From Zwartia hollandica (GTDB taxonomy: Bacteria > Pseudomonadota > Gammaproteobacteria > Burkholderiales > Burkholderiaceae_B): a stretch of DNA of 64,000 nt. The notes beneath the pieces are model-generated. The model was not told where the DNA came from. It saw only the letters and a list, made by a program, of their open reading frames with translations, and did not search any database. Where the stretch lies: positions 124,001 through 188,000 of the forward strand of contig NZ_JAHXRI010000004.1 of assembly GCF_019923725.1 (NCBI RefSeq), in the 5' to 3' direction. This document shows positions 25,033 through 59,186 of the stretch, in pieces. Positions within the stretch are counted from its first letter, which is position 1; every line of letters begins with the position of its first letter. Both the position numbers and the translations under genes were made by a program.

Positions 25033-26196
25033 ATGACGCCTTTAAGCGCTTCGGTTCTACCCTCGGGCGTGCGGTCGCGCTTTATACCGAACGTCAATGG
25101 CATCACGTTTCATGTGCTTGAAGCCGGCTTTGAGACGCCAGAGCGTCCTTTGGTGCTGTTACTGCACGGGTTTCCAGAGCTTGCTTATAGTTGGCGTAAA
25201 GTCATGCAGCCGCTTGCGCAAGCAGGCTATCACGTGATCGCACCAGATGTGCGAGGCTATGGTCGCAGCGGTGGGACCGAGATCAAGTATGGCGACGATA
25301 TGCGTCCCTTTGGGTCGCTGAATAAAATCAACGATATGCTCGCCTTAGTCGCGGCACTCGGTTACAAGACTGTTGCAGGCGTGTTTGGTCATGATCAAGG
25401 CTCGCCTCTTGCAGGGTGGTGTGCGCTGACCCGACCCGATATCTTTCGCTCGGTCATTCTTATGAGCTCGCCTTTTCGTGGTGCGCCAGATCCGTGGCCG
25501 TTCGATACGATCAATAAGCCGGCTGCACCCGCCACCCCGAATCCGATCAATGAAGATTTGGCCAAACTTTCGCCGCCACGCAAGTATTACCAGGTGTACT
25601 ACGCCACAGAACCTGCTAACGAAAACATGTGGCACGCCAAGCAAGGGCTGCATAGTTTTTTGCGTGCCTACTATCACGTCAAAAGTGCGGATTGGCTTGA
25701 AAATAAGCCTTTCCCGTTGAAGGCGTTGATCGCAAGCGAATGGGAAAAGCTGCCTCGGTACTACGTAATGGATTTAAATCTGGGGATGGCTGAGTCCGTA
25801 GCTCCTGATATGCCCTCGGAGGCTGCGATCGCCGCCTGTAAGTGGCTACCGGACGCTGAACTGAAGGTCTACAGCGAAGAGTACGGTCGCAATGGCTTTC
25901 AGGGCGGCTTGCAAGGCTATCGAGTTGGGCGGCTTGACCGAGAGTTGCGAATCTTCGCTGGTCGCACAATCGATGTGCCGTGTATTTTCATCGGCGGCAA
26001 AAGCGACTGGGGTGTGTATCAGACACCTGGTGGTCTTGAGTCGGTACAAAAAACCTTGACCACCCAAATGCAAGGCACCCATCTGATCGAGGGTGCCGGG
26101 CATTGGGTGCAACAAGAACAGCCAGAGAAAGTCAGTGCGTTGTTTATTGACTTTCTCAGGCGTAACGTCTCTACATCTGGTTCGGTAACCAGGTGA
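25033..26196 (+). CDS. Alpha/beta hydrolase, soluble epoxide hydrolase type
   Basis: A 387-residue alpha/beta-fold enzyme. HGFPE (45-49) forms the oxyanion region, DVRGYGRS follows, and the nucleophile elbow is GHDQGS with Asp121. The catalytic base is probably the His of GAGHWVQQEQP near the C-terminus. A cap domain lies between (about 140-300) with several tyrosines. Asp rather than Ser at the elbow fits epoxide hydrolases and haloalkane dehalogenases; the HGFPE motif favours the former. Its last 26 bases overlap the end of the convergent TRAP permease gene, leaving no room for a terminator. Confidence 0.82.
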   Translation: MTPLSASVLPSGVRSRFIPNVNGITFHVLEAGFETPERPLVLLLHGFPELAYSWRKVMQPLAQAGYHVIAPDVRGYGRSGGTEIKYGDDMRPFGSLNKINDMLALVAALGYKTVAGVFGHDQGSPLAGWCALTRPDIFRSVILMSSPFRGAPDPWPFDTINKPAAPATPNPINEDLAKLSPPRKYYQVYYATEPANENMWHAKQGLHSFLRAYYHVKSADWLENKPFPLKALIASEWEKLPRYYVMDLNLGMAESVAPDMPSEAAIAACKWLPDAELKVYSEEYGRNGFQGGLQGYRVGRLDRELRIFAGRTIDVPCIFIGGKSDWGVYQTPGGLESVQKTLTTQMQGTHLIEGAGHWVQQEQPEKVSALFIDFLRRNVSTSGSVTR

Positions 26197-27463
26197 CGAT
26201 TTCTGGGAAGATCATCAGGAATATGGTGAAGAGGATGATGATAATCGCGTAGGGTAGAGCACCCCACATGACGTCCTCAATACCACCTTTGTCTGGTCGA
26301 ATGCCATGCACGACAAACAGGTTCATACCGACTGGGGGTGTGATCAAGCCTAGTTCGCACATCAGAATCACAAAGATGCCAAACCAGATGGGATCAATGC
26401 CTAGTGCAACAGCGATCGGGTAGGTCACGGGAATCGTTGCCACCATCATCGACAGCACATCCATGAACATACCCAAGAGCAGATAGAACAAGATCAATCC
26501 GAGTATCAGTGCCGTCGGAGACAGTCCCAGACCGGTTACCCACTTTGTCATGACTTCAGCGACACCCGTCAGGCTGATAGTCAGATTCAAAATAAACGCG
26601 GCGGCAATAATCAGGAGAATCATTCCCGACACACGAGCGGTCGAGATAAAACAGCCTCGTAAGAGTGCCCAATTTAAGCGGCCTGACTTCAACACAAACA
26701 AAACAACAGTAGTGACACCTAAGGCGGCACTCTCAGTCGCTGTCGCAATACCAAAATATAGACTTCCCATCACAACACCAAAAACAATCATCGGTGGAAT
26801 GAGATGCACAGATGCTTTTAACTTGTACTCGAGCGAGACTTTCTCCTCCCGCATGGCATTACCGCTAAGCAGACTAGTAATCGCGATGTACAGCATGAAA
26901 GAGCCGGTTAGTAATAACCCAGGAATGATGCCGGCAATGAACAGTTTGCCGATCGAGTTGCTCGTCAACGAGCCGTAGATAATCATGTTGACGCTAGGTG
27001 GGATAAGAATCCCCAGAGTCCCACCTGCCGCGATAGAGCCCAGCGACGGTCGAATCGGATAGCCGCGCTTCATCAGTGAGGGCAAAGCAACTGTCGAAAT
27101 CGTTGCAGCCGTCGCCACCGACGACCCGGAGGTTGCAGCAAACAACGCGCAACTACCGATGTTTGTGTGTAGTAACCCACCAGGCAGTCGACCAAACCAA
27201 GCAGAAAGTGCTAGGTACATTCTGTCTGCAATACCGGACCGAAGCAAAAGCTCCCCAAGCAAAATGAACATTGGAATGGAGGTCAGCAGATTCTCGTTTT
27301 GAACACCCCAAAGAACGGGCGCGATCGAGTTCATAAACGGTAGACCATAGACGGCCACGCCACCGACGATACCGACTAGGGCCATTGAGACAGCAATGGG
27401 GACGCCAGCGATCATCATGAAAACCATGATCAAAAACGCAATAATGATAATCGTTGGGCTCAT
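26171..27463 (-). CDS. TRAP transporter large permease subunit, DctM type (second system)
   Basis: Integral membrane protein of 430 residues with about 12 predicted helices, the ion-driven channel part of a TRAP transporter. Typical patterns are FILLGELLLRSGIADRMY, a Gly/Ser/Thr-rich loop GSSVATAATISTVALPSL, GILIPPSVNMIIYG, and a C-terminal ELGLITPPVGMNLFVVHG. It overlaps the small-subunit gene by four bases and is last in the leftward operon. Its stop lies inside the convergent hydrolase gene. Confidence 0.92.
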   Translation of the reverse strand: MSPTIIIIAFLIMVFMMIAGVPIAVSMALVGIVGGVAVYGLPFMNSIAPVLWGVQNENLLTSIPMFILLGELLLRSGIADRMYLALSAWFGRLPGGLLHTNIGSCALFAATSGSSVATAATISTVALPSLMKRGYPIRPSLGSIAAGGTLGILIPPSVNMIIYGSLTSNSIGKLFIAGIIPGLLLTGSFMLYIAITSLLSGNAMREEKVSLEYKLKASVHLIPPMIVFGVVMGSLYFGIATATESAALGVTTVVLFVLKSGRLNWALLRGCFISTARVSGMILLIIAAAFILNLTISLTGVAEVMTKWVTGLGLSPTALILGLILFYLLLGMFMDVLSMMVATIPVTYPIAVALGIDPIWFGIFVILMCELGLITPPVGMNLFVVHGIRPDKGGIEDVMWGALPYAIIIILFTIFLMIFPEIVTWLPNQM

Positions 27464-28047
27464 GATTTGTTTGTCAACTCGGAAATGTTGGATCTTTGTG
27501 CAAGGTCATCAAGCTCTTCTTTTATTTCTTCCTTGGCACTTTTCGGCTGGAACTCTTCATTGAGCTCGCTCAGTTGTCCCTTCGCTAAGAGAAGGGTGGC
27601 GCGGATCGCCCAGACGGTTGTGACACAGGCGAATATGACTAACCCGGCGTACCAGATTGATTGTGGATAAATTAGTGGAGTTGCCCAAGGCGTTTGCGCC
27701 GTACTGCTGTAGGCGATGGTGTCTGTTAGCACGTTGATCGTGACATAACATAAGAATATTGCGAATACAGCCATGCTAGTGGCCGCGAACCAATTCATCC
27801 ATGCCTTCATACGAGGAGAATAGCGCTCGTACAGAACGTCGACACGGATGTGATTTCTGCCAAACACGGCTAGACTGAAAGCGAGCGTTGAACCAACGGC
27901 TAACGCATAGCCTCCAAGTTCATCAGCACCTTGTAAGGAGACGTTAAAAACTTTTCGGACAATTGTCTCAATGGTGATAACAATCACCAAGAGTCCAAAA
28001 ATCCCGCCAAACAAGATACTTAAGATACTTTCTAGCCGTGTTTTCAT
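27460..28047 (-). CDS. TRAP transporter small permease subunit, DctQ type (second system)
   Basis: The 195-residue protein has four predicted membrane helices. The FNVSLQGADELGGYALAVGSTLAFSLA segment is typical of DctQ, and HIRVDVLYERYSP lies in the loop after the second helix. A charged cytoplasmic C-terminal tail (KSAKEEIKEELDDLA) is longer than usual. It follows the receptor gene by nine bases and overlaps the large permease gene by four, so the three are translated together. Confidence 0.9.
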   Translation of the reverse strand: MKTRLESILSILFGGIFGLLVIVITIETIVRKVFNVSLQGADELGGYALAVGSTLAFSLAVFGRNHIRVDVLYERYSPRMKAWMNWFAATSMAVFAIFLCYVTINVLTDTIAYSSTAQTPWATPLIYPQSIWYAGLVIFACVTTVWAIRATLLLAKGQLSELNEEFQPKSAKEEIKEELDDLAQRSNISELTNKS

Positions 28048-28056
28048 GCTGCTACC

Positions 28057-29106
28057 TTATTTCACGCCAAGGATTGGACCAACGGCCTTCTTCCAATCTG
28101 CTGAGCAGGTTGGATTGGTCTTGTCGCATACTGGTGCCCAAGCAGGGAACGACAGTCTGTCCACCACACTACCAACAAGCTTGATGTCAGCTGGGGATAC
28201 GGGCGATGTGATCACTTTAAACTTTTTACCTGTTGTGCAGGGATCCTTGCCTTCGTTACAACGCAACGCGTCTTGATATAGCTCTTCGGAGTATTTCCAA
28301 ATATCATTGGTCAACTCTGTAAACGCTGCTTGCAGTTTGACTTGCTGGTCCGGTTTCAGACGGGTCCATGTTTTGAGTGAAATGGCATACCCGTTAAAGC
28401 CCATTTGGAAACCGAGCGGTAACTGATGGGTGACAATTTCAGTCCATGAAGCCGAGTTTGCTGAGCTTGGGCCGGTGACGGCACAATCGACAACACCCAA
28501 CGACAGTGCCTGATGCACATCGCTAAAGCCCATTGGTACAGGTGTGGCACCCAGTGACTCTAGGAACTTAGCCATGATTTGGTCGGTTACTCGGACTTTC
28601 ATCCCTTTTACGTCAGAAAGCTGAGTGATTGGTTTTTTACAGAACAACATTTGGGGGCCAAAAGGCCAGTGGCCGAGCAGCTTGATGCCGAATTGCTTTT
28701 GCAGGCGTGCATCGAGCACAGGAGACCAAGCGTCAGCTGCTTTGCGGCTCGTGGCGTAGTCTGGGCTACCACCAACTAGGTCTAAACCAATCAAGGAGGG
28801 CTCATCGCGAGAGTTCTGTGAAAAACGTAGCGAAACCAAGTCAAACAAGCCGGTCTTCATCACACGCAACTGCTCAGTATCTTTGATTCCAAGCGTATCC
28901 ATGGGCTTGTATTCAACGGTGATGGGCAGACCAGTTTTGGCAGCCAGCTGTTCAAAGAACGGTTGCTCACGGTTCTTTTGAATGTTGCCAGTCGCCAGAG
29001 GCTGACCAATCACTTTGATGGTGATGTTTTGAGCATAAGTCGTTGGCATTGCTAGAACCATGCTGCTCAACGCAAGTGGTGCGAGATATCGTTTAATCAA
29101 AGACAT
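28057..29106 (-). CDS. TRAP transporter solute receptor, DctP type (second system)
   Basis: Periplasmic binding protein of 349 residues with a signal peptide ending near TYAQN. DctP features are DVKGMKVRVTDQ, with the carboxylate-binding arginine, and GVVDCAVTGPSSA followed by the long hinge helix. The C-terminal half has an extra segment with several cysteines (RCNEGKDPC, CDKTNPTC) that could form disulfides; these are not common in the family. It heads the second TRAP set, 30 bp after the first set's large permease. The ligand is unknown, probably a carboxylate. Confidence 0.88.
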   Translation of the reverse strand: MSLIKRYLAPLALSSMVLAMPTTYAQNITIKVIGQPLATGNIQKNREQPFFEQLAAKTGLPITVEYKPMDTLGIKDTEQLRVMKTGLFDLVSLRFSQNSRDEPSLIGLDLVGGSPDYATSRKAADAWSPVLDARLQKQFGIKLLGHWPFGPQMLFCKKPITQLSDVKGMKVRVTDQIMAKFLESLGATPVPMGFSDVHQALSLGVVDCAVTGPSSANSASWTEIVTHQLPLGFQMGFNGYAISLKTWTRLKPDQQVKLQAAFTELTNDIWKYSEELYQDALRCNEGKDPCTTGKKFKVITSPVSPADIKLVGSVVDRLSFPAWAPVCDKTNPTCSADWKKAVGPILGVK

Positions 29107-29136
29107 AAAGAACTCCGGTGAGGGAAGGGAATATTG

Positions 29137-30417
29137 TCAGTAACCCATTGCGCGAGGCAGGGTCGTCACAATCGCAGGAAAAAACAGGCAAAGCAAAAGA
29201 ACGGCATACATCCATGCAACAAAAGGCCAAATATTTGTGACGAGCTCACGCATACGCACGCCAGTGACGCCACAGACAACAAAGAGTACAACGCCAACAG
29301 GTGGCGTAAGCATCCCAATAACCAAGTTAAGAACAAAGAGGAAACCGAAGTGCAAGGGGTCAATGCCGTACTGAATCGCAATGGGATGCAGCAGCGGAAC
29401 GAGCATGATGTAGGCAGAGTTTGACTCGAGGAACATGCCGACAATGAAGAGCAGGACCGTCACCAAAAGTAGATAAATGATCGGATCTTTCGTAATAGAG
29501 AAGAGCAGTGCTGATAGCTTTTGTGGCATGAGATCGACCGTCATCAAGTAAGTGATGACGGAGGCGAACGCAATTAACGCGCACACAACGGCTGTTGTGA
29601 TGGCGGCACGCAAAATGATGCCAGGTAAATCGGAGAGTTTTAGCGTCCTGGTGATACCAAACCCTAGAATCAAGGCGTAAATCACTGAGACGGCAGAACC
29701 CTCCGTTGCAGTGAAGGCGCCGCCGATAATCCCACCGATAATGAGCAAGGGCATAAACAACACAATAGCGGAGCGCTTGAGTTCGCTAAAAAGCCGTCCC
29801 CATTTAAATGCTTCGCCCGTAGTAGTCCAACCCCGACGCGTCGCAATCCACGAACACAATCCCATGAACCCTATGGTAATCAATACGCCCGGCACGACAC
29901 CTGCCATGAACATCCCGCCAACGGATACAGAGGGTCCCGCCATAAACGCATATACGATCATTGCAGCGGAGGGGGGAATGATTGGTCCCAGGTTAGCCGC
30001 GGCAGCAACGATGGCCGTGGCGAAACCCTTGTCGTAGATTTTTGATAATGAGGGGACAAGGATTGCAGACAACGCGCTGGCGTCAGAGACTGCAGTGCCC
30101 GATACGGTGGCCAGACCAGCGCCCGATAACATTGTGACGTGTGCAAGCCCACCGCGTACTCTCCCTACGAGAGCGTTGGCAAATGAGATCAAGCGCTCTA
30201 TGATGCCCGCCTTGATCATTAACTCACCGGACAGCATGAAAAAGGGGATGGCCATTAGCGGGAAAGAGTTGACCGAGTACATCATCCTCTGCGGAATGAT
30301 CGATAGGTCAATGCCGGCAAACCAGATGGCGATAATGGCACTCAATCCCATCGCGAAAGCGATCGGAACGCCGAGCAGTGCAATGGCCATAAAGCCAACA
30401 ACGACGAGCGTACTCAT
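29137..30417 (-). CDS. TRAP transporter large permease subunit, DctM type (first system)
   Basis: Membrane permease of 426 residues and about 12 helices. Patterns include PFFMLSGELMIKAGIIERLI, GAGLATVSGTAVSDASALSAILVP, GPIIPPSAAMIVYAF and a C-terminal GMLTPPVGVVLFVVCG, all typical of DctM. It overlaps the DctQ gene upstream by four bases. It differs clearly from the DctM at 26171-27463, so the two transporters are distinct systems and not a recent duplication. Confidence 0.92.
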   Translation of the reverse strand: MSTLVVVGFMAIALLGVPIAFAMGLSAIIAIWFAGIDLSIIPQRMMYSVNSFPLMAIPFFMLSGELMIKAGIIERLISFANALVGRVRGGLAHVTMLSGAGLATVSGTAVSDASALSAILVPSLSKIYDKGFATAIVAAAANLGPIIPPSAAMIVYAFMAGPSVSVGGMFMAGVVPGVLITIGFMGLCSWIATRRGWTTTGEAFKWGRLFSELKRSAIVLFMPLLIIGGIIGGAFTATEGSAVSVIYALILGFGITRTLKLSDLPGIILRAAITTAVVCALIAFASVITYLMTVDLMPQKLSALLFSITKDPIIYLLLVTVLLFIVGMFLESNSAYIMLVPLLHPIAIQYGIDPLHFGFLFVLNLVIGMLTPPVGVVLFVVCGVTGVRMRELVTNIWPFVAWMYAVLLLCLFFPAIVTTLPRAMGY

Positions 30418-30935
30418 TCAGCGTCTCCCAATTTCTTTAAGGGAGGGGCTGTCAACGCAATACGCGTCAGATGCAAGGCTGTCATTACCATGCCTAAACC
30501 GACTGGAACAAAGAAATAGGCGACGCTTATGTCGAGAGTTGCCATTTTTTCATCCCACTGATCTTTGCAGAGTTCGATGCAGGACCAAGCAATGGCATAG
30601 CAGAGAGCCGCACACAGACCACAGGATAGTTTCCTAATGATGGCCTGGTGGGTCGGTGAAAATTTGTCAACAAATAAATCTATCCCAATATGCGCCCCGT
30701 GAGAGGCGGCTACTGGTATAGCAAGAAAAACGACCCAAACGAATGCGAGGCGCCCAGATTCGTCAGCCCAGTCGATGGACATGTTGAGTCCGTAGCGCAA
30801 AGCGACTTGCGCTGAGACGATACCAACCATAAAGCAAAAAATTGCGACAATTGCAGCGATGAGTACGAAGTCAATGCCCTTGAACAACTTGCCAAGTAAC
30901 GTCGTCGTGTCATAGGGCATCGAAATCGTATTCAT
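30414..30935 (-). CDS. TRAP transporter small permease subunit, DctQ type (first system)
   Basis: The 173-residue membrane protein has four predicted helices and the DctQ pattern NMSIDWADESGRLAFVWVVFLAIPVAASHGAHIGIDL. It starts 23 bp after the receptor stop and overlaps the large permease gene by four bases. It belongs with the DctP at 30959-31963. Confidence 0.9.
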   Translation of the reverse strand: MNTISMPYDTTTLLGKLFKGIDFVLIAAIVAIFCFMVGIVSAQVALRYGLNMSIDWADESGRLAFVWVVFLAIPVAASHGAHIGIDLFVDKFSPTHQAIIRKLSCGLCAALCYAIAWSCIELCKDQWDEKMATLDISVAYFFVPVGLGMVMTALHLTRIALTAPPLKKLGDAE

Positions 30936-30958
30936 TTTCTAATCTGCTTATGCTGTAT

Positions 30959-31963
30959 TTATTTCGATGTCTCGGCTAAAACCTGGTTTACCAGATCTGC
31001 GCCCGCTCTCTTTTTGACACTCTCAACAACGGGGGCCGTTAATTCACGCATTTTTGCGAAAGTTTCTGGTGGGATTTCTGTATAGGTCATTTTTGTTTTG
31101 AGGTTATCTAACGCTTTTTGCTCGTCTTCTGCAGCCAGGCTACGTTGATACGCAACCGTTTTTGCCATTGCCTGCCGCACGGCAGTTTGATTGGCAGGAC
31201 TCATTTTGTCGAACACGCGCTTACTAGCGACCACAACAATAAAGTCAAAAAAGTGTGATGAGTTCGATAGGTGTCTTTGTACTTCGGCAAAACGGTTGGC
31301 ATTAATCACTGTATAGGGGTTCTCTTGGCCGTCTACCACTTTCTGCTCGAGGGCTGAATAGAGTTCCTTCACATCCATTGCAATCGGGTTCGCTCCAAGG
31401 GCCCTAAACGAAGCAAGGTGTGTTTCGTTTGGCTGCATGCGAATCTTCATGCCTTTCAAGTCATCGACAGTCTTGATGGGGCCTTTGCTGTTGGTCACAT
31501 GACGCATGCCAAGTTCCATCCAGCCGAGTACAACGAAGCCTTTCTCGAGCAGTTTTTGATCAATTGCCTTACCGACAGGACCATCGATTACACGGTAGGC
31601 GGACTCACGATTCTTGAAGACGAAGGGAAGGCTCACTGCTTCAATCTCAGGTGCGATACGTGACATGAAAGCCGCGCCCACCCAAGTCAAGCCTAAGGTT
31701 CCTGCGCGCACGCCGTCGACGTTCTCTTTTGCCCCACCTAGCTGCATCGCGGGAAATACATCCACCTGAAGGGTATTGTTAGTGAGGCGTGCGACTTCGG
31801 CTTTGAATATTTTTTCGACCGCAACACTGCTTGGGTGAGATGTTGCAAAGTTACCAGCAATCTGCAGCTTGTCTTGCGCGATGGCTTGTAGGCAGGTAGC
31901 CGAAAGTAGCAGTGCCCCGATGGTAGCAGTTAGACGGGTAACGGCGGTAGGTTGGCTGTTCAT
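30959..31963 (-). CDS. TRAP transporter solute receptor, DctP type (first system)
   Basis: Periplasmic receptor of 334 residues with a signal peptide ending at about AIAQD. It shows the full DctP pattern: DLKGMKIRMQPNETHL, with the substrate-clamping arginine, then VDGQENPYTVINANRFAEVQ and FDKMSPANQTAVRQAM. This form usually binds C4-dicarboxylates, 2-keto or hydroxy acids. Its ATG overlaps the stop of the racemase-like gene (ATGA), which ties transport to the hydantoinase and racemase genes. Confidence 0.92.
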   Translation of the reverse strand: MNSQPTAVTRLTATIGALLLSATCLQAIAQDKLQIAGNFATSHPSSVAVEKIFKAEVARLTNNTLQVDVFPAMQLGGAKENVDGVRAGTLGLTWVGAAFMSRIAPEIEAVSLPFVFKNRESAYRVIDGPVGKAIDQKLLEKGFVVLGWMELGMRHVTNSKGPIKTVDDLKGMKIRMQPNETHLASFRALGANPIAMDVKELYSALEQKVVDGQENPYTVINANRFAEVQRHLSNSSHFFDFIVVVASKRVFDKMSPANQTAVRQAMAKTVAYQRSLAAEDEQKALDNLKTKMTYTEIPPETFAKMRELTAPVVESVKKRAGADLVNQVLAETSK

Positions 31964-32742
31964 GATGCGTCCTTTAAGTTGGCTTGAAGTCGTTGGTGCC
32001 CGTTCGTGAGCAAAGTGTCGATCGAGGTTGGTAGGCCTGCGTTCGGTTTTTGTGGAGGTGGTGAAAAGCTACCTATGGTCGTTTGCCCAGCGTTTAGGCG
32101 AATGAGAGTTTCGGCATGCCGAACAGCGCTAGACACCCCATCCACGACAGGTACAGGAAGTTTTCCCGACAAGCTGCGCGCAAGCCCTGCCAAGGGGGCA
32201 CCCGCTAAGATAATGACATCGGCACCGTCCTCACTGACACAAAGGTTTGCAGTGGCAAGAAGACTGGCTGCTTTATCTTCCTGAACCGACCCAATGTTAG
32301 GAAGGGGTTCGTCAAGGCTGCGGATACTGACAAGCCGGCTACCCAACCCATAAGAATCGACGGTTTCTTGATACCAGGCGCGGATGCGGCGCGAAATTGC
32401 GACAATGGAGATGCGGTTGCCGAGCAAGCAGGCACTCGCGAGTGCGGCTTGTGTCAGTCCAACGACAGGACAGGGAAGTACCTCTTTCAGGCCGGTAAGC
32501 CCTGGATCTCCAAAGGCTGCAACCACCACCGCATCATAGTTGCCAGCATGCTCTCCGGCGAGTTGGGCGGCTGCATAAGCACCAATGAGTGCTTCAAAAC
32601 GGGTTTCGATATACGCAACGCCGAAGGAAGCGGTAACGGTTTGAATGGCTGTATCCGCGGATGCAGATCGCTTTGCTTCTGCGTCGATCAGTTCCGAAAC
32701 GCTTGCGGAAATGTTTGGATTGATCAGCAAGATACGCATCAT
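31960..32742 (-). CDS. Asp/Glu/hydantoin racemase family protein without the usual cysteines
   Basis: The 260-residue protein has the hydantoin/Asp-Glu racemase layout: MMRILLINPNISASVSE at the start, VVAAFGDPGL near 73-82, and DVIILAGAPLAGLA near 176-188. In cysteine-dependent racemases both of these loops carry a catalytic Cys. Here the positions appear to be Ala76 and Gly181, so simple two-base racemisation is doubtful. It lies six bases after the hydantoinase stop and overlaps the TRAP receptor gene. It may be an isomerase of another type, a hydrolase or a binding protein. Confidence 0.78.
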   Translation of the reverse strand: MMRILLINPNISASVSELIDAEAKRSASADTAIQTVTASFGVAYIETRFEALIGAYAAAQLAGEHAGNYDAVVVAAFGDPGLTGLKEVLPCPVVGLTQAALASACLLGNRISIVAISRRIRAWYQETVDSYGLGSRLVSIRSLDEPLPNIGSVQEDKAASLLATANLCVSEDGADVIILAGAPLAGLARSLSGKLPVPVVDGVSSAVRHAETLIRLNAGQTTIGSFSPPPQKPNAGLPTSIDTLLTNGHQRLQANLKDAS

Positions 32743-32748
32743 GTCTTC

Positions 32749-34167
32749 CTAGCGAGCAGAGGTCATGAGGGTTGGCTTGCCGCAGGTCAGGAATTTCCCC
32801 TTGCCTAAGCGTGGCAGGAAATTTTTACCATCCCACACCACTTCACCGTTACTGAGTGTTAAACCTGGCCACGCCTTTAATTGGATGCCCTCATAAGGGG
32901 TGTAGTCGACTGCATGATGCAACGCGCTGTTATGGATCGTGATGTCTTTCTCGTCCCAGATGACAAGGTCTGCATCGGCGCCGGGCGCGATGGTTCCTTT
33001 GCGTGGGTGCAGTCCGTAGGCTTTTGCAGGATTGGTGGAAGTTAGTTCGACAAATTTATTCAAAGAGAGTCGGCCAGTCAGTACGCCTTCGGAATACAGT
33101 AAAGGCATACGCGTTTCGAGTCCGGGTATGCCGTTGGGTATGTGGCGAAACGGTTGCTCTTTCCCGTCAAGCTTTTTACCTTCTGGGCTGTCGTAATTGA
33201 AGGGCGCGTGATCCGAGGAGAAGACCGAAAACAAGCCATCTCTCAACGCGTTCCAAATGACTTCTTGATTGCTCCGGTCTCTGGGAGGTGGACTGCAGAT
33301 ACATCGTGCACCCACATAACTATCATCGATGCCCAAGTCCTCGGCGGTGAGGAACAAGTATTGGGGACAGGTTTCAGCAAAGATCTGTAGGCCATGGCCG
33401 CGAGCCCATCGGATTTGCTCGACGGCCTCTTTGCCCGAGACGTGGACAATCAGGATAGGCACATCGACCAACTCAGATAGGGCGATTGCGCGGTGTGTGG
33501 CTTCACGCTCGACAAGCATGGGCCGTGAGTGTGCGTGAAAACGGGGCGCAGTTTGCCCTGCCGCCTCAAGCCTGCGAGTCAGCCATTCGATGCAGTCTGC
33601 GTTCTCGGCATGAATCATTGCCATCGCGCCGTGTTGTCTGGCCACAGACAGCACATCTAGAATTTGACCATCGTTGAGCTTGAGGTCGTCATAGGTCATG
33701 TAGATCTTGAAAGATGTGTACCCCTCTGCAATCAATGCAGGGAGTTCTTCGTTAAGCACGGCGGGTGTTGGGTCACTGACGATAAGGTGGAAGGTGTAGT
33801 CAACGTGGGCGCGGCCGTCGGAGCGGCGATGATAGTCCCGAACGGCGTCGCGAAGTGACTGGCCTTTTTCTTGAGCCGCAAAGGGAATCACCGTCGTTGT
33901 GCCGCCACAGGCTGCCGATCGTGTGCCGGTCTCGAAGTCATCGGCCATTTTCATCGGAGCGGGCATTGGCTGGTCAAGGTGACAGTGCGCATCGACCCCG
34001 CCTGGTGTGACGACTCGGCCTGCCGCATCGATTGTTTTCTTTGCGGGAGGCAGGAAGCTACCTACGACGACGATTTTGCCGTCTTTGATCCCGATGTTGG
34101 CGTCAAAGGTATCGGCTGCAGTGGCGACGCGGGCATTGGTAATGACGAGATCTAGTAAATCAGACAT
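32749..34167 (-). CDS. Dihydropyrimidinase / D-hydantoinase
   Basis: Amidohydrolase-superfamily enzyme that opens cyclic ureides such as dihydropyrimidines and 5-substituted hydantoins to N-carbamoyl amino acids. Metal ligands visible in the 472 residues are H61 and H63 (DAHCHLDQP), the carbamylated lysine K154 (SFKIYMTY), H186 (IHAEN), H242 (HVSGKEA) and D319 (SSDHAPF). Length is normal. HCH replaces the common HTH without affecting ligands. It is the first gene of an eight-gene leftward operon with a racemase-like gene and two TRAP systems. No N-carbamoylase gene was found nearby. Confidence 0.92.
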   Translation of the reverse strand: MSDLLDLVITNARVATAADTFDANIGIKDGKIVVVGSFLPPAKKTIDAAGRVVTPGGVDAHCHLDQPMPAPMKMADDFETGTRSAACGGTTTVIPFAAQEKGQSLRDAVRDYHRRSDGRAHVDYTFHLIVSDPTPAVLNEELPALIAEGYTSFKIYMTYDDLKLNDGQILDVLSVARQHGAMAMIHAENADCIEWLTRRLEAAGQTAPRFHAHSRPMLVEREATHRAIALSELVDVPILIVHVSGKEAVEQIRWARGHGLQIFAETCPQYLFLTAEDLGIDDSYVGARCICSPPPRDRSNQEVIWNALRDGLFSVFSSDHAPFNYDSPEGKKLDGKEQPFRHIPNGIPGLETRMPLLYSEGVLTGRLSLNKFVELTSTNPAKAYGLHPRKGTIAPGADADLVIWDEKDITIHNSALHHAVDYTPYEGIQLKAWPGLTLSNGEVVWDGKNFLPRLGKGKFLTCGKPTLMTSAR

Positions 34168-34228
34168 ACGAGAATTTTCCGTTTGTAGCGGGCACGGGTG
34201 CTGGATTCCCCATTTTGGGGCAGATAAA

Positions 34229-34236
34229 TGTCAACA
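34229..34236. promoter_or_regulatory. TGTNNACA site 1 (candidate GntR operator)
   Basis: TGTCAACA in the divergent control region, nearest the hydantoinase gene. It is the reverse complement of site 3. The GT-NN-AC core fits sites bound by FadR/VanR-type GntR repressors. Confidence 0.45.
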
Positions 34237-34307
34237 ACAGTGCATACATAATGATGTTTCATTTCCTGTTACGAGTGCCACGTCATGCGTGAGACCTTCA
34301 AACAGTT

Positions 34308-34348
34308 GGCACAGCATTTGCTTGGAATACACAAGCAAAAGCCGTGCC
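34308..34348. repeat. 41-nt imperfect inverted repeat in the divergent control region
   Basis: GGCAC, GC and TTTGCTTG on the left (34308-34324) pair with CAAGCAAA, GC and GTGCC on the right (34332-34348). That gives 15 bp with two single mismatches and a 7-base centre. No T tract follows on either strand, so an intrinsic terminator is unlikely. It could be a large operator or a cruciform/RNA hairpin near the transcription start of the hydantoinase operon. Confidence 0.75.
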
Positions 34349-34383
34349 AGAGCATGGTATGTTGAATAGTAATTAAGTAATAT

Positions 34384-34395
34384 ATTGTCGACAAT
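34384..34395. promoter_or_regulatory. Perfect palindrome, TGTNNACA site 2 (candidate GntR operator)
   Basis: ATTGTCGACAAT is a perfect 12-bp palindrome containing TGTCGACA (34386-34393), 37 bases before the GTG of the rightward operon. A gene for a GntR/FCD regulator lies in that operon, so autoregulation is likely. Confidence 0.6.
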
Positions 34396-34409
34396 GGTAT
34401 TTACACTAA

Positions 34410-34417
34410 TGTTGACA
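34410..34417. promoter_or_regulatory. TGTNNACA site 3 (candidate GntR operator)
   Basis: TGTTGACA, 24 bases downstream of site 2 start to start and just upstream of the GGAG ribosome site at 34423-34426. It also contains a TTGACA word, but this is too close to the gene to serve it as a -35. Confidence 0.4.
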
Positions 34418-34431
34418 TATTTGGAGTGATT

Positions 34432-35157
34432 GTGGATAAGCCAATTCGAATTGGGGTGCTGACCCCTTCTTCCAATACCGCACTAGAGCCTTTGACGAGT
34501 TCGATCGTTTCGGTGATTCCTGGCGTAACGGCGCATTTCGGTCGCTTTCGAGTTACACAAATATCTCTTTCAGATCAGGCACTTGGGCAATTTGATGATA
34601 GTAAAATCTTAAGTACTGCAGAACTGCTCGCCGATGCAAATCCTGACGTGATTACCTGGAGTGGAACGTCCGCTGGTTGGATGGGCTTCGAGAAAGACGC
34701 TCTACTGTGTGACAGGATTACTGAGCGCACAGGGATTCGTGCGTCGACGGCAATTCTTGCATTAAATGAGTTGTTGGCGATTAAGAAGGTCAAGCGTTTG
34801 GGTTTAGTGACACCGTACACCAGTGACGTCCAGGAAAAGATTATTGCGAATTACGCGAAGATTGGGATCGAAGTGGTCGCAGAGACGCACCGTCAGATTT
34901 CTGTGAACTTTGACTTTGCGTTGGTTGAGCCCACAGACATAGAGTCTGATTTACTGCAAGTTAGCCGGGCGCAGCCCCAAGCGATCGTGACGTATTGCAC
35001 GAACTTGCGGGCCGCTCACTTAGCCGATCGGTTTGAGTTCCAAACCAGTATTCCATTACTCGACACCGTGAGTACGACGGTTTGGGGTGCACTGCGCGCC
35101 GTGGGCGCGGATCCAGCTGGCATAAAAGGCTGGGGACAATTATTTGAATGGAAGTAG
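34432..35157 (+). CDS. Arylmalonate decarboxylase-like protein (Asp/Glu racemase superfamily)
   Basis: A 241-residue member of the maleate isomerase/arylmalonate decarboxylase group. IGVLTPSSNTALEP near the N-terminus, ITWSGTSAGW near 75-84 and IVTYCTNLRAAHLAD near 185-199 are the two active-site loops. The first has Gly78 where maleate isomerases have Cys; the second keeps Cys189. Gly plus one Cys is the pattern of arylmalonate decarboxylase (G74/C188), so decarboxylation of a malonate-type acid is a better guess than isomerisation. The GTG at 34432 is chosen for its GGAG site; GTG 34426 is also in frame. It opens the rightward operon. Confidence 0.75.
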   Translation: MDKPIRIGVLTPSSNTALEPLTSSIVSVIPGVTAHFGRFRVTQISLSDQALGQFDDSKILSTAELLADANPDVITWSGTSAGWMGFEKDALLCDRITERTGIRASTAILALNELLAIKKVKRLGLVTPYTSDVQEKIIANYAKIGIEVVAETHRQISVNFDFALVEPTDIESDLLQVSRAQPQAIVTYCTNLRAAHLADRFEFQTSIPLLDTVSTTVWGALRAVGADPAGIKGWGQLFEWK

Positions 35158-35192
35158 GCCTGTGATGAAAACAAGCAACGCTCGAGGCGACT

Positions 35193-35888
35193 ATGCAATC
35201 TAAGGTAACGGCTCGATTGCAGAGAGAGAACACGCAAGACGAGATCTATGAAAAGATTTACGGTGCGATTCTCGAACATCGTTTGCATCCCGGGACCAAG
35301 CTCGTAGAGGAACGGTTGGCGGAGATATTTAAGGTCAGCCGAGCCCGGATACGTGAGGTGCTTGCGCGCTTGGCGCATGAGCAAGTTGTTGATATGTATC
35401 CGCAGCGTGGCGCGTACGTCGCACGTCCGACGATCGAGCAAGCTGTCCATGTGTTTGAGGCACGTCGCCTCATCGAGCCTGAACTGGTCCGACGTCTAAT
35501 AGAAAATCTCACGCCGGAACGTATCGAGCGGTTGCGGCAGCACTGCTCGCTTGAGCAAGACGCCCGGCGTCGTGAAGACAAGCGCATGATTGTTCGTCTG
35601 TCTGGCGAGTTTCATATGCTGATCTCTGAGTTAGCAGGCAATCAGGCGTTGATGCGAACGATGCGCGAGCTTTCTTCTCTGACCTGCCTGATCATTATCT
35701 TGTACGACGCACCGACTGCGTCAAGTTGTCGCGCGGATGAACATAGTCTGATCACGGATGCGATTGCTAAGCGTGACATCGAGGGCGCACAAAAGATGAT
35801 GCTCGAACACCTTGCACATATTGAAGGCAGCTTGAACTTAGAGCCAGCCGATTCCGAAGTCGACCTTGCAACCATTTTTGCTGAATGA
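35193..35888 (+). CDS. GntR family transcriptional regulator (FadR subfamily, FCD domain)
   Basis: The 231-residue regulator has an N-terminal winged helix (DEIYEKIYGAILEHRLHPGTKLVEERLAEIFKVSRARIREVLARLAHE) and a C-terminal helical FCD effector domain. Three metal-binding histidines appear in FHMLISELAGN, ADEHSLI and LEHLAHIEG. FCD domains usually bind small carboxylates with a metal. RARIREV replaces the more common RTPVREA in the recognition helix. It sits second in the rightward operon and probably binds the TGTNNACA sites between the two operons. It overlaps the next gene by four bases. Confidence 0.93.
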   Translation: MQSKVTARLQRENTQDEIYEKIYGAILEHRLHPGTKLVEERLAEIFKVSRARIREVLARLAHEQVVDMYPQRGAYVARPTIEQAVHVFEARRLIEPELVRRLIENLTPERIERLRQHCSLEQDARRREDKRMIVRLSGEFHMLISELAGNQALMRTMRELSSLTCLIIILYDAPTASSCRADEHSLITDAIAKRDIEGAQKMMLEHLAHIEGSLNLEPADSEVDLATIFAE

Positions 35889-36631
35889 TCATGAAAATCC
35901 TTTTGATTAATCCAAATACGAGCCAGCATGTGACCGAGCGCATGCGAGCCAACGCCCAGCAGGCTGTGGGTGAGGCGGCGACAATTCATGCCTTTACCGC
36001 GCAATCGGGCCCGGCGATTATTAGTAGTCGTTCAGAGAATGCGATTGCTTTGGCCGAGATGCTCCGATTAGCGGCGTGTCATCAGGACGGGCATGATGCA
36101 CTCATGCTTGGAGTGTCGATTGACACGGGCCTGCAAGCGCTGCGAGAGATGTTGGATATCCCGGTGGTGGGAATGGCGGAGGCTGCACTGCTCACGGCTA
36201 GTATGTTGGGTGGGAAAATCGGTTGTTTAACGCTTGGTGCTGCGATGGTGCCGGTCTATGAAGAACTGACTGCTAGTTACGGCTTGTCCTCGCGCGTATC
36301 AAAATGGCGTGCGATAGAGGTGCCTAGTGCTTTTAAAGTGACGGATGCCGATCCAGTAGTCGAGCGAGCTTTGATTGAAGCCTCAAAGCAATTGGTGCAA
36401 CAGGATGGTTCAGACGTCATTATTCTGTGCGGTGCGGTGCTTGCTGGCTACGCACGACAAGTCTCAACAGCGGTTGGCGTTCCTGTTGTTGATCCGGCTC
36501 AAGCCGCCGCACTACAAGCGCTGACGTTGGCGAGAATGCGGCCGGCTAAGCAGGTTAGTGGAAGCTTCGCACGCCCGAAGGGTCGACTATTTTCTGGAAT
36601 CGATCCTGATATTGCCGCGTTATATAAATAG
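35885..36631 (+). CDS. Asp/Glu/hydantoin racemase family protein (second copy)
   Basis: The 248-residue protein shares the layout MKILLINPNTSQHVTERM, LMLGVSIDTGL near 73-83 and DVIILCGAVLAGYA near 177-190 with the protein at 31960-32742, but the two are distant. The first canonical Cys position appears to be Val77. A Cys is present near the second (Cys182), but shifted by one place relative to the usual loop by eye. The start may be ATG 35885, overlapping the regulator stop, or ATG 35891. It is probably involved in isomerising or processing the ring-opened product; activity is uncertain. Confidence 0.78.
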   Translation: MIMKILLINPNTSQHVTERMRANAQQAVGEAATIHAFTAQSGPAIISSRSENAIALAEMLRLAACHQDGHDALMLGVSIDTGLQALREMLDIPVVGMAEAALLTASMLGGKIGCLTLGAAMVPVYEELTASYGLSSRVSKWRAIEVPSAFKVTDADPVVERALIEASKQLVQQDGSDVIILCGAVLAGYARQVSTAVGVPVVDPAQAAALQALTLARMRPAKQVSGSFARPKGRLFSGIDPDIAALYK

Positions 36632-36664
36632 CAATCAGACAAGCGTAGAGGTCATGAGGAGCGC

Positions 36665-37567
36665 ATGATGGATCGTAGAGATTTGTATGGGTACCGAGAC
36701 CAACGTCCACAGGCACAATGGCCTGGTGGTGCAAGCGTTGCGCTGAACTTTGTGCTCAACGTAGAAGAGGGCGCGGAGTTGAGTCTCGCTGATGGTGATG
36801 CATCTAACGAGCCTATGCATGAGGTCACTAGCAAGGTCACGACCGAACCGGATTTGTGTCGGGAGTCGCATTTTGAGTTTGGCTTGCGAACAGCCTACTG
36901 GCGCGTATTGCGTGAGTTTGATGAAGCTGGTCTGCCCTGTACCCTAAACGTGTGCGGACGCGTGGCAGAGCGCACCCCAGCGTTGTTAAAAGAGGCCGTC
37001 GGCCGCGGCCATGATGTTTGTGCGCATGGTTGGCTCTGGCAATCGCCGGCTGGCATGAATAGAACTCAAGAGCGTGCCATGATGCTCAAAACTTTGGATG
37101 CGATCGAGCTTGCGAGTGGGGTGCGACCCACAGGCTGGCATTGCAAATCAACGCCAACGGTCAACACGCGCGAACTCGCGTGCGAACTTGGTCTGCTGTA
37201 TGACAGTGACGCCTACAACGACGAGCTACCTTATTGGGCCCCCATCGGGCAGGGACAGGCACTCGTCTTGCCGTATCAGTTTGATACCAATGACATGCGT
37301 TTTTTTGGTGAGTCTCCCGCCTTTGTACAGGGGCGCGATTTTTCAAACTATGTGATCGAGACGCTTAAGCGCCTACTGTACGAGGGTGACAAGTGGCAGT
37401 CTCAGTCGATGCTGACCGTTGGGCTACATCTGCGCATTATTGGCAGGCCTGGGCGGGTGCAGGCGTTGCATGACATTCTTAACTTTGTCCGCAGTGATGC
37501 GCGTATTTGGACGACGACTCGTACATCTATTGCGCAACACTGGCTATCGCATCACCCAGTTCGCTAG
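36665..37567 (+). CDS. Polysaccharide deacetylase-fold hydrolase, PuuE allantoinase / cyclic imidase type
   Basis: The 300-residue protein has the NodB-like barrel of the PuuE group. It begins GYRDQRPQAQWPGGASVALNFVLNVEEGAE, where carbohydrate deacetylases have an Asp-Asp metal pair, and HDVCAHGWLW carries the His motif. The SESHFEFG-like ESHFEFGLRTAYWR segment is typical. Enzymes of this group hydrolyse allantoin or cyclic imides, not sugars. With the hydantoinase this suggests that two types of cyclic amide are opened here. GGAG lies before the ATG pair at 36665/36668. Its stop overlaps the convergent gene by four bases. Confidence 0.85.
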   Translation: MMDRRDLYGYRDQRPQAQWPGGASVALNFVLNVEEGAELSLADGDASNEPMHEVTSKVTTEPDLCRESHFEFGLRTAYWRVLREFDEAGLPCTLNVCGRVAERTPALLKEAVGRGHDVCAHGWLWQSPAGMNRTQERAMMLKTLDAIELASGVRPTGWHCKSTPTVNTRELACELGLLYDSDAYNDELPYWAPIGQGQALVLPYQFDTNDMRFFGESPAFVQGRDFSNYVIETLKRLLYEGDKWQSQSMLTVGLHLRIIGRPGRVQALHDILNFVRSDARIWTTTRTSIAQHWLSHHPVR

Positions 37568-38355
37568 GGTTTGACGCGCGGGAACCGTTCAATGAGTCTA
37601 GCGCGCCAGGCGGCGTTAGGCTTTAGTAGCTTATGCAGTGCTGTCGTGTCATCTTCGGCACCTTTAGCCATCTGATTGATTTGCCAAGCCATACAGAAAT
37701 TTGAAGAGATCGCGGGCATTCCTAAATCAGACAATGTCATGATCGGACCGAGAGTGGGCATACCTGCGCCCGCTAGCAAGATGAGGTCTGGCTTGTGCAC
37801 GAGTAGTCGCTTCGCAGCATCCAGTACTGACGCATTGCGCATGGTGTAAATGTTGTGAAATCCACCTGGTGTTTCAGGCCCGTCGATGGCGCAAATCTCT
37901 ACACCACAGCGTTTCCAGTACGTCGCACTTTTTTGTGTCAACCAGTCAGGGTAGGGGCTCACCAACCCGATTCGCTTTGCATTAAGGCATGCGAAAGCTC
38001 TGCGAATTGATTGTGCCGCCGAGACCACTGGATACCCATAACGTGTGCTTAACGCAGCGAAATGTGCATCTTCTTGCTCAGGCGTGAGGTGATAGGTTGA
38101 GCCGGTAATCAGGAAGCCCAGACCACTGAGTGGTGCGTTAGAGAATGTTGATACAAATCCATCGATGCCCGTCAAGAAGTCTTCGAGCCGTTCCTTCATT
38201 TCTGGTTGCGGGCTTGTCAGACGCCCAGTCAGTAGGGCAATATCCGTATCAAGCAGTGCCTGCACCTCTGGTTCGGCCGTTGTGTTGGCTTGAGGTACGA
38301 GTAACCCTAAGGTTCCTCGGGCGCCGTATTCGACTTCATCGGTTAATGTAGGCAT
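37564..38355 (-). CDS. Maleate isomerase / arylmalonate decarboxylase-like protein lacking both active-site cysteines
   Basis: The 263-residue protein has LGLLVPQANTTAEPEVQALL at the N-terminus, which marks the maleate isomerase/AMDase group. The loops that hold the two catalytic cysteines read FLITGSTYHL (about 81-90) and LILLAGAGM (about 191-199), with Gly85 and Ala195 where Cys is expected. It may bind a similar acid without isomerising it, or use other residues. It converges on the PuuE-like gene (4-bp overlap) and diverges from the Bug receptor gene with only 16 bp between start codons. Confidence 0.72.
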   Translation of the reverse strand: MPTLTDEVEYGARGTLGLLVPQANTTAEPEVQALLDTDIALLTGRLTSPQPEMKERLEDFLTGIDGFVSTFSNAPLSGLGFLITGSTYHLTPEQEDAHFAALSTRYGYPVVSAAQSIRRAFACLNAKRIGLVSPYPDWLTQKSATYWKRCGVEICAIDGPETPGGFHNIYTMRNASVLDAAKRLLVHKPDLILLAGAGMPTLGPIMTLSDLGMPAISSNFCMAWQINQMAKGAEDDTTALHKLLKPNAAWRARLIERFPRVKP

Positions 38356-38371: not shown

Positions 38372-39337
38372 ATGAAAAAAATAATTATGTGTACGGTCGC
38401 TGCGCTCGGTGCACTGCTGGCTGCCACAGCTACGGCCCAAACCTGGCCTTCCAAACCCATTCGTTTGATCAATCCGTACGCTCCGGGTGGCTTTGGGGAC
38501 ACAGTGGCCCGGCCGATGTTTGATCAGTTGGCGCAGTCACTTGGGCAACCCATCATAGTTGAAAGCCAGGCGGGCGCCAACGGCACACTGGCGTCGAACG
38601 TCGTTGCCAAAGCGGCACCGGATGGTTACACGATACTGATTGCAAACCTTGGGCCGATCGCGATGAATCCGGTGTTGTATCCCGCGACCACAGCCGATCC
38701 ACTAAAAGTCTTTGTTCCGATCACGCAATTGGTGTCGGGGCCGCTTGTGATCCTCGCACATCCCGATTTTCCCGCCAAGACCTTGCAGGAGCTGATGGAC
38801 TACGCGCGCGCTAATCCCGGCAAAGTGAGCTATGGCTCGGTCGGCCCCGGCAGTACGACGCATCTAGCGGGCGAACTACTCGCGCTTAAGGGTAAGTTAG
38901 ATTTATTGCATGTTCCGTTTAAGGGGGCTGCACCCGTCATTACCAACTTGCTAGGTAAACAAGTCGATATCGGGATTGTGAATATCTCTCTGGCCAAGCC
39001 ACACATTGATGCCGGTCGACTACGACCCATTGCGGTGACCACGCTCAAACGCTCTAGCATTTTTCCTGCAGTGCCCACGGTCGCTGAGGCGCTACCAGGG
39101 TTTGAGGTGAATCCCTGGTGGGGGCTGATGGCCCCGGTTGGAACACCCAGTCAGGTCATTACACGGGTCGAGCAAGAGATGATTCGTATTCTAAAAATTC
39201 CCGCGATCGCAGCAAAGTTACGTGAGAGCGGCTTGGAGCCTGAGGGAACCACGGCGTCAGCGTACGGCAAAGTGATTGCGGCGGACATCGATCAGTGGCG
39301 CGAGGTTGTGAAAGCGAACAAGATCTCCTTGCAATGA
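38372..39337 (+). CDS. Bug/TctC family solute receptor
   Basis: Periplasmic binding protein of the tripartite tricarboxylate transporter receptor family, 321 residues, with a signal peptide ending ATATAQ. Family marks are WPSKPIRLINPYAPGG, ESQAGANGTLASNVVAKAAPDGYTI and VPFKGAAPVITNLLG. No TctA or TctB membrane gene is near, as is usual for Bug proteins of Alcaligenaceae. GGAG precedes the ATG. It follows the catabolic cluster and may bind one of its substrates or serve as a sensor input; the ligand is unknown. Confidence 0.9.
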   Translation: MKKIIMCTVAALGALLAATATAQTWPSKPIRLINPYAPGGFGDTVARPMFDQLAQSLGQPIIVESQAGANGTLASNVVAKAAPDGYTILIANLGPIAMNPVLYPATTADPLKVFVPITQLVSGPLVILAHPDFPAKTLQELMDYARANPGKVSYGSVGPGSTTHLAGELLALKGKLDLLHVPFKGAAPVITNLLGKQVDIGIVNISLAKPHIDAGRLRPIAVTTLKRSSIFPAVPTVAEALPGFEVNPWWGLMAPVGTPSQVITRVEQEMIRILKIPAIAAKLRESGLEPEGTTASAYGKVIAADIDQWREVVKANKISLQ

Positions 39338-59034: not shown

Positions 59035-59186
59035 GGCGAGACGGCTCATTGGCGAGTGGATCGGAGGATTGCCCGAGCATGGTAGTGCAGAATCGGACTT
59101 TTGAGTACTGCTAATAGGCGTGGTATTTCTAGGCACGAGTGCTGAAAGGTGCTAAGGTTTGTGCACAAAAATTATGGAGAACCAGA

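Follow-up and report, generated by a model that had tools for sequence, protein, structure and literature searches.

What pathway is encoded by a divergent gene cluster of Zwartia hollandica that joins a hydantoinase-type enzyme (HYD) to a protein resembling arylmalonate decarboxylase (AMDase; the protein is called AMD here), two racemase-fold proteins and two tripartite ATP-independent periplasmic (TRAP) transporters? The cluster occupies positions 26171-37567 of the 64,000-nucleotide stretch analysed in this work (positions 124,001 to 188,000 of contig NZ_JAHXRI010000004.1; hereafter the window), in a host genome of 3.22 Mb in 25 contigs that is 99.7% complete. We compared it with related loci from many genomes and found that it is almost certainly a conserved, co-regulated catabolic unit, best called a variant of hydantoinase-based catabolic clusters. 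Its constant part is HYD plus AMD, usually accompanied by the racemase-fold protein RacA and a GntR-type regulator, and its transporter varies between TRAP, major facilitator superfamily (MFS) and ATP-binding cassette (ABC) systems.

Results

Gene content of the cluster

Open reading frames (ORFs) and family scans gave one leftward and one rightward operon, with the gene families that an earlier note, made from the letters alone, had assigned to them. In operon order, the genes are:

32749-34167, minus strand: HYD, hydantoinase/dihydropyrimidinase-family cyclic amidohydrolase (PRK13404, 775.8 bits, cut-off 647)
31960-32742, minus strand: RacA, Asp/Glu/hydantoin racemase fold in which both racemase cysteines are absent (PF01177, 138 bits)
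30959-31963, minus strand: T1P, TRAP receptor 1, DctP (PF03480, 258.6 bits)
30414-30935, minus strand: T1Q, TRAP small permease 1 (PF04290, 101.9 bits)
29137-30417, minus strand: T1M, TRAP large permease 1 (PF06808, 350.7 bits)
28057-29106, minus strand: T2P, TRAP receptor 2, a divergent DctP (PF03480, 78.3 bits)
27460-28047, minus strand: T2Q, TRAP small permease 2 (PF04290, 72.4 bits)
26171-27463, minus strand: T2M, TRAP large permease 2 (PF06808, 291.9 bits)
34426-35157, plus strand: AMD, resembling AMDase, maleate isomerase and EutA, with one conserved active-site cysteine, C191 (PF17645, 53.6 bits, cut-off 25.9)
35193-35888, plus strand: GntR/FCD regulator (PF07729, 84.9 bits; PF00392, 55 bits)
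35885-36631, plus strand: RacB, another protein of the racemase fold that has neither racemase cysteine (PF01177, 144.1 bits)
36665-37567, plus strand: PUUE, predicted PuuE-like cyclic amide/imide hydrolase of the polysaccharide-deacetylase family (PuuE model, 260.6 bits, cut-off 424.6; PDB 3cl6, E=1.1e-66)

Both TRAP systems are full, each holding DctP, DctQ and DctM together with all six genes above their Pfam cut-offs, and they are dissimilar, as the note had held: the receptors T1P and T2P share 25% identity across 191 aligned positions and the large permeases T1M and T2M 31%. RacA and RacB are 36% identical. A 4-base overlap joins four adjacent gene pairs (RacA/T1P, T1Q/T1M, T2Q/T2M and GntR/RacB), suggesting that translation is coupled within each.

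Conservation and distribution of the gene set

A search for AMD in 250 family genomes gave 39 carriers at E<=1e-30, with 41 places including the window, and the regions around the remaining 40 places were retrieved for comparison. A profile scan of a named genome collection gave at least 566 AMD relatives, of which the best 80 were kept. Together with 35 of the 40 family loci (five duplicates being removed), these made up 115 AMD-anchored loci, the window excluded, among which four more AMD pairs at least 98% identical were retained. Neighbours were counted within 9 kb of AMD, at identity thresholds of 30-50% set gene by gene. HYD was found in 100 of these loci, GntR in 79 and RacA in 71; T2P was present in 49, an MFS protein in 43, T1P in 18 and an NMT1-type ABC receptor in 12; amidase-signature proteins (AMIDASE) occurred in 32, and RacB and PUUE in 16 each. 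AMD itself exceeded its own 40% identity threshold in 112 of the 115, and some gene absences are contig ends (e.g. L126, L132 and L154). A search of other genomes, which the note had proposed, thus found the gene set conserved.

Since the 115 loci had been selected by AMD, the anchor was reversed to RacA or HYD in the 250 family genomes. RacA stood near HYD in 22 of 29 places and near AMD in 22 of 29, AMD near HYD in 33 of 41, and HYD near AMD in 33 of 52. The neighbourhood recurs in many Burkholderiales genera (by record titles) and in Alphaproteobacteria, and plasmids from Klebsiella and from a member of the Actinomycetota carry it as well. The closest named AMD relatives among the best 80 of at least 566 (94-95% identity) come from three metagenome bins, whose titles, as deposited, are uncultured beta proteobacterium (two) and Bordetella parapertussis (one). 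The MFS protein is nearest to acid symporters, with 236 bits for TIGR00893 (named D-galactonate transporter), below the cut-off of 395.

Beta-lactamase-fold serine hydrolases were seen in or near the operon in 13 loci, immediately after HYD in L150, L155, L163, L170 and L172, as tandem pairs in some loci, and before AMD or more distant in others.

A repeated DNA site in the divergent promoter region

The scan covered every excisable HYD/AMD intergenic region between 80 and 700 bp in length, and each of these 43 divergent regions, the window included, holds TGTNNACA, against 2.7 expected from mononucleotide shuffles. The centre of the motif is mostly C/T then G/A; at least two sites are present in 39 of the 43 regions, the commonest spacings being 12, 39 and 24 bp. 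A motif scan of the window places the predicted sites as follows:

34229-34236, no strand: predicted operator TGTCAACA, on the HYD side
34386-34393, no strand: predicted operator TGTCGACA, which forms the core of the 34384-34395 palindrome ATTGTCGACAAT
34410-34417, no strand: predicted operator TGTTGACA, 24 bp from the 34386 site

The motif was also found between HYD (or T1P) and GntR where AMD is absent, in 8 of 11 regions vs 1.44 expected (one of the 11 being an 8-kb stretch that is not truly intergenic), and upstream of MFS, within 350 bp, in 12 of 21 vs 1.33 expected; among 1340 random 300-bp pieces taken from the same set of loci, 56 held it. TGTNNACA is likely a GntR operator, presumably bound by the cluster's own GntR. 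A window scan allowing up to two mismatches gave no enrichment (4 vs 2.69), and a near match at window position 45600, lying inside a TctC ORF, was discarded. Genome-wide, the count stayed near the control (43 vs 31), and no regulon could be derived from it.

Residues of HYD

HYD scores above both family cut-offs, that of PRK13404 and that of TIGR02033 (525.6 against 393.25 bits), and below the allantoinase cut-off (259 of 357.85 bits). In an alignment of 98 sequences (the window and 97 of the 100 HYD loci, three being too short), H58, H60, K150, Y155, H183, H239, S288, D315 and N337 (1k1d numbering) are kept in 98/98; we take these nine positions to be the metal ligands, the carboxylated lysine, the catalytic Asp and the ring-binding Tyr, Ser and Asn. 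The pocket is altered: of F152, A154 and F159, which presumably line the substituent pocket of 1k1d, the first is Tyr and the second Thr in 98/98, and the third has no aligned residue. Intact catalytic and ring-binding residues combined with an altered pocket indicate that HYD probably functions as a cyclic amidohydrolase and has a substrate class of its own.

Residues of AMD and related Amdase-family proteins

AMD was aligned over 112 sequences, the window and 111 loci. C191, N17, Y131 and N161 are present in 112/112, as are G80 and T81; at S82, 84 sequences have Ser and 28 have Ala. G80/T81 formed part of one of the two search patterns used for the best 80 of at least 566 named loci; they are also present in the 36 family AMD sequences at least 45% identical that came from a whole-protein search (4 of 40 regions fell below 45% and were excluded). 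The published AMDase residues Gly74, Thr75/Ser76, Tyr126 and Cys188 have counterparts in G80, T81/S82, Y131 and C191. Gly189 of the dioxyanion hole and the ILLSCGGL motif are not matched, AMD having C-T-N (C-S-N in one sequence) and not C-G-G, and AMD reaches 49 of the 225 bits of the AMDase NCBIfam equivalog cut-off. Its N-terminal stretch reads T-P-S-S-N where the published AMDase pattern reads V-P-P-A, as judged by eye; the AMDase criteria of the source paper include Pro14-Pro15 and a hydrophobic pocket of L40, V43, Y48, V156 and M159 (PMC4996985).

The best solved relatives of AMD by sequence are maleate isomerases (2xec, E=1.5e-10), and its best NCBIfam model is EutA (56.1 of 318 bits). 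Membership was rejected both for true AMDases, on Gly189/CGG and the cut-off, and for true maleate isomerases, on the missing first of the two cysteines; both were retained as working analogies. That AMD decarboxylates is about an even call.

Two further Amdase-family proteins lie in the window. One directly follows the cluster together with a receptor gene divergent from it, both being doubtful members:

37564-38355, minus strand: AMD2, second Amdase-family protein (PF17645, 33.6 bits), with no cysteine at either active-site position
38372-39337, plus strand: TctC orphan receptor (PF03401, 242.8 bits)

Among the best 80 of at least 566 named relatives, AMD2 (89% identity) accompanies the cluster only in the three closest loci, L093-L095. 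The other protein (60209-60931, plus strand) is of the Amdase/EutA type (113.7 bits) and has cysteines at both active-site positions; it is downstream of a cobalamin-independent methionine synthase-like gene (59139-60212), with CoA-transferase III and enoyl-CoA hydratase genes nearby.

RacA and RacB

The earlier note had called these two proteins racemase-like, which stands for the fold family (PF01177) and fails for the classical two-cysteine racemase. In residue alignments that include the window, RacA (71 sequences, from the window and 70 loci) has Ala and Gly at the two racemase cysteine positions in 71/71, and RacB (16 sequences, from the window and 15 loci) has Ile/Val/Met and Gly in 16/16; a Cys occurs within two positions of the second RacB site in 6/16 and at the site itself in none. 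The racemase genes L001 and L002, used as a control from the same genome, keep both cysteines, which in OpaE are reported as essential (PMC12661438). The Pseudomonas allantoin racemase chain 5lfd, as deposited and possibly not wild type, has Gly at the first Cys position and cautions against over-reading. With both cysteines missing, the classical role was rejected; RacA is very likely not a two-cysteine racemase, and RacA and RacB are probably not classical racemases.

A FastTree tree was built from 19 RacA sequences (every fourth locus plus the window), 17 RacB rows and, for comparison, L001, L002, 3qvj and 5lfd, with arbitrary rooting. RacA formed one clade (0.979) and RacB another (1.0). 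Because the two clades adjoin, the loss of the cysteines looks ancestral to both proteins.

Modules and alternative partners

The loci support two uptake/enzyme modules, T1 with HYD and RacA and T2 with AMD, which are separable. T1P co-occurs with RacA in 15 of 18 loci, the remaining L075, L076 and L078 holding distant T1P homologs (41-43%); HYD-RacA-T1 occurs without AMD in L199 and L200, and T2P stands beside AMD in 7 of the 15 loci without HYD. Genome G052 carries AMD-T2 (L070) and HYD-RacA-T1 (L200) on separate contigs, and in L071 the modules are side by side. Thirty of the 115 loci hold HYD and RacA near AMD with an MFS protein and neither TRAP receptor. These single-MFS loci and an Arthrobacter plasmid cassette (see below) therefore favour one pathway able to use interchangeable uptake systems, to which the two-module reading is a serious rival. 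In L071 (genome G138), HYD, T1M and T2M are each broken into two ORFs, by decay or sequencing error.

RacA was found alone in 66 loci, RacB alone in 11 and both in 5, the window's closest relatives carrying both; PUUE is accompanied by RacB in 14 of its 16 loci. Because RacA and RacB are mostly alternative, PUUE is tied to RacB and each of these two is present in 16 of 115 loci, PUUE/RacB looks like an add-on branch in which RacB apparently substitutes for RacA. The identification of PUUE as a PuuE allantoinase was rejected on its score under the equivalog cut-off. PMC9304392 relates PuuE-type proteins to the cyclic imidase HxnM and to the cyclic imide hydrolase of Pseudomonas putida.

The note had stated that an N-carbamoylase is absent. 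This holds for the 12 cluster genes, by family scans, and not for the genome, where four TIGR01879 N-carbamoylase homologs score above cut-off elsewhere. An M20-type N-carbamoylase was found in none of the recurrent neighbour families scanned, most single neighbour genes standing outside that scan. Neighbour family d10, considered as an N-carbamoylase, was rejected as a beta-lactamase-fold serine hydrolase.

Fourteen further regions were retrieved, comprising 12 of the 19 HYD places without AMD, one other RacA copy (L203) and one PUUE (L204). Recurrent there are family e3, identified by scanning its members in L191, L199, L203 and L177, and the SBP_bac_5 receptor family e6 of oligopeptide-type ABC genes, for which, as for the permeases, one member each was scanned. 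The scan gave e3 as TRZ/ATZ-type amidohydrolases, and its reading as an amidase was dropped; these proteins may be deaminases supplying ring compounds to HYD. The host genome has one e3 homolog (L177, C1:412843-422843), grouped with a racemase gene that keeps both cysteines, with TctC receptors and with a PuuE-like gene other than PUUE (46% identical to it); L177 is possibly a related pathway.

Plasmid copies

Arthrobacter sp. ZXY-2 plasmid pZXY21 (Actinomycetota), typed conjugative by PLSDB, carries a five-gene cassette, MFS-GntR-RacA-hydA-AMD, with two transposase genes upstream. Its hydantoinase is only 33% identical to HYD, whereas its RacA, AMD and MFS proteins reach 54%, 43% and 53%.

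Two other plasmids carry variants. In Klebsiella michiganensis (L221), RacA-GntR is divergent from an operon of ABC, oxidoreductase, short-chain dehydrogenase/reductase, AMD, hydA and FAA hydrolase genes, the same core in Enterobacterales with extra dehydrogenases. In Caballeronia sp. NK8, plasmid pNK83 (L224) has an AMD homolog, and no gene less than 9 kb away from it is annotated as a hydantoinase; the AMD homolog adjoins genes for a PRK12393/8-oxoguanine-deaminase-like amidohydrolase, a nucleobase symporter and UbiD/UbiX.

Discussion

Proposed pathway

Taking the gene content, the conservation, the residue patterns and the repeated DNA site together, we infer a substrate class, an order of reactions, roles for AMD and RacA, binding of the site by GntR and a direction of regulation. 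The cluster would be a GntR/FCD-controlled, plasmid-mobile catabolic module for an anionic cyclic ureide or imide, a proposal that we consider evenly balanced. Its substrate class by itself is somewhat more likely than not, given the intact ring site of HYD and the acid-taking transporter families (TRAP, and an MFS protein that comes closest to acid symporters at a score under the cut-off). The substrate would be a hydantoin- or dihydropyrimidine-like ring bearing an acid group; T1 would import it, and HYD would cleave the ring C-N bond by hydrolysis at a two-metal, carboxy-lysine site. RacA, a cysteine-less hydantoin racemase relative, may act on the substrate or product of HYD, by a mechanism other than two-cysteine racemisation. 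AMD would act on a dicarboxylate, either taken up through T2 or formed from what HYD releases on ring opening; a single cysteine would donate the proton and a Gly-Thr-Ser loop would bind a carboxylate. The reaction of AMD would most likely be a cofactor-free decarboxylation, otherwise an isomerisation. PUUE, with RacB in the role of RacA, may form an add-on branch for the opening of a second type of ring. From TGTYRACA sites in the promoter region that the two operons share, GntR/FCD would repress both of them until a pathway intermediate releases it.

Several observations weigh against this proposal. The sole ground for an acid group on the substrate is the class of the transporters, and isomerisation by AMD is about as plausible as decarboxylation because some residues of maleate isomerase recur in AMD. 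HYD has no nearby AMD in 19 of 52 places in the 250 family genomes, and AMD lacks HYD in 15 of the 115 loci, some of them at contig ends. Nine of the 12 AMD-less HYD regions contain e3, eight of these nine also e6; the role of HYD therefore need not include AMD, and the oligopeptide-type ABC class is not acid-specific. Nor is the absence of both cysteines from a PF01177 protein confined to this cluster, as another such protein of the host genome (L005, C22:577850-581443) has no Cys at either position. As for the operator, the motif was selected after inspection of the divergent regions and then tried on other architectures; 9 of the 21 MFS-type upstream regions are without it, it occurs at one of six plasmid loci (Diaphorobacter only), and the regions share ancestry (63 AMD pairs are at least 90% identical), so that their counts are not independent.

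Alternative explanations

The gene set might instead comprise two independent units side by side, HYD-RacA-T1 and AMD-T2(-PUUE-RacB), which share a regulator and serve separate pathways. This would account for L199 and L200, for the HYD-less loci with T2P and for the separate contigs of genome G052; we hold it to be a doubtful possibility, as the 30 loci that combine a HYD-type enzyme, AMD and RacA with a single MFS, and the Arthrobacter plasmid, fit one pathway. Less probable still is a variant of the ordinary hydantoin route, with HYD yielding an N-carbamoyl amino acid, an N-carbamoylase elsewhere finishing the pathway and AMD and RacA as accessories. HYD does exceed the D-hydantoinase and PRK13404 cut-offs, the genome has its four N-carbamoylase homologs and amidase-signature genes lie near AMD in 32 loci; against these stand the missing racemase cysteines of RacA and RacB, the lack of an M20-type N-carbamoylase in the recurrent neighbour families scanned and the five-gene Arthrobacter cassette, which by annotation lacks an N-carbamoylase.

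A cyclic-imide route, in which HYD and/or PUUE give a half-amide, an amidase supplied from elsewhere frees ammonia, and AMD isomerises or decarboxylates the dicarboxylate, seems to us unlikely. No amidase-signature gene lies among the window's cluster genes and near flanks, AMD is without the first of the two maleate-isomerase cysteines, and HYD retains the residues that we take to bind the ureide ring in hydantoinases; an amidase-signature gene is nevertheless present in 9 of 16 PUUE loci, among solved structures maleate isomerases come closest to AMD, and the imide hydrolases cited above are counted as relatives of the PuuE type. Chance grouping of common genes, in an organism rich in transporters and racemase-fold proteins (10 PF01177 and 8 PF17645 matches at E<=0.001, the lists overlapping), can practically be dismissed: the set recurs at over 100 loci, with a second phylum represented, and its DNA site is shared by 43 of 43 divergent regions, so that conservation contradicts it.

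Significance

Returning to the GntR/FCD-controlled module, it is tempting to speculate that it is an undescribed, horizontally mobile pathway for a common natural anionic cyclic ureide or imide, in which a hydantoinase acts with two kinds of racemase-fold enzyme of new function, AMD as a single-cysteine decarboxylase or isomerase and RacA/RacB as a cysteine-independent enzyme, and RacA or AMD replaces the N-carbamoylase step; we rate this broader idea as improbable. The gene set is common, with AMD relatives in at least 566 stretches and HYD near AMD in most loci examined; plasmids carry it, it spans two phyla, and the literature searched gave no substrate for it. A solution of the pathway would assign functions to many genes whose annotation goes no further than hydantoinase, racemase or TRAP transporter. 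It would also delimit a branch of the Asp/Glu racemase superfamily that has lost the cysteines, and it could lead to a nitrogen-ring nutrient that has been overlooked. Because of its split modules and predicted operator, the cluster is directly testable.

Comparison with known systems

The suggestion of an undescribed pathway agrees with the open-access literature searched, which gave no description of the gene set (subscription journals lay outside its coverage) and no paper with both 'hydantoinase' and 'arylmalonate decarboxylase' or both 'hydantoinase' and 'maleate isomerase'. Hydantoin utilisation (hyu) clusters consist of a hydantoinase, a hydantoin racemase and an N-carbamoylase. Like them, the present cluster places an enzyme of the D-hydantoinase family next to a relative of hydantoin racemases and a transporter; it differs in having no N-carbamoylase, a racemase-fold protein without either cysteine and a frequent AMDase-like partner. 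The purine route offers solved relatives, allantoin racemase for RacA and RacB and PuuE allantoinase for PUUE, whereas the cluster proteins have lost the cysteines in the former case and fall below the cut-off in the latter, as HYD does for allantoinase. With maleate isomerase 2xec, AMD shares the positions of Asn17, Tyr131 and Asn161 and the second Cys, but has Gly in place of the first catalytic cysteine; its score for EutA is far under the cut-off. Finally, AMDase loci with TRAP, tripartite tricarboxylate transporter (TTT) or ABC transporters are described in PMC4996985. AMD is like these AMDases in its single cysteine, the Gly in place of the other racemase cysteine, the Thr-Ser loop and the tyrosine, and TRAP genes are adjacent in both; it differs in Cys-Thr-Asn for Cys-Gly-Gly, in the GntR regulator, which is named nowhere in the text of that paper, and in its hydantoinase partner.

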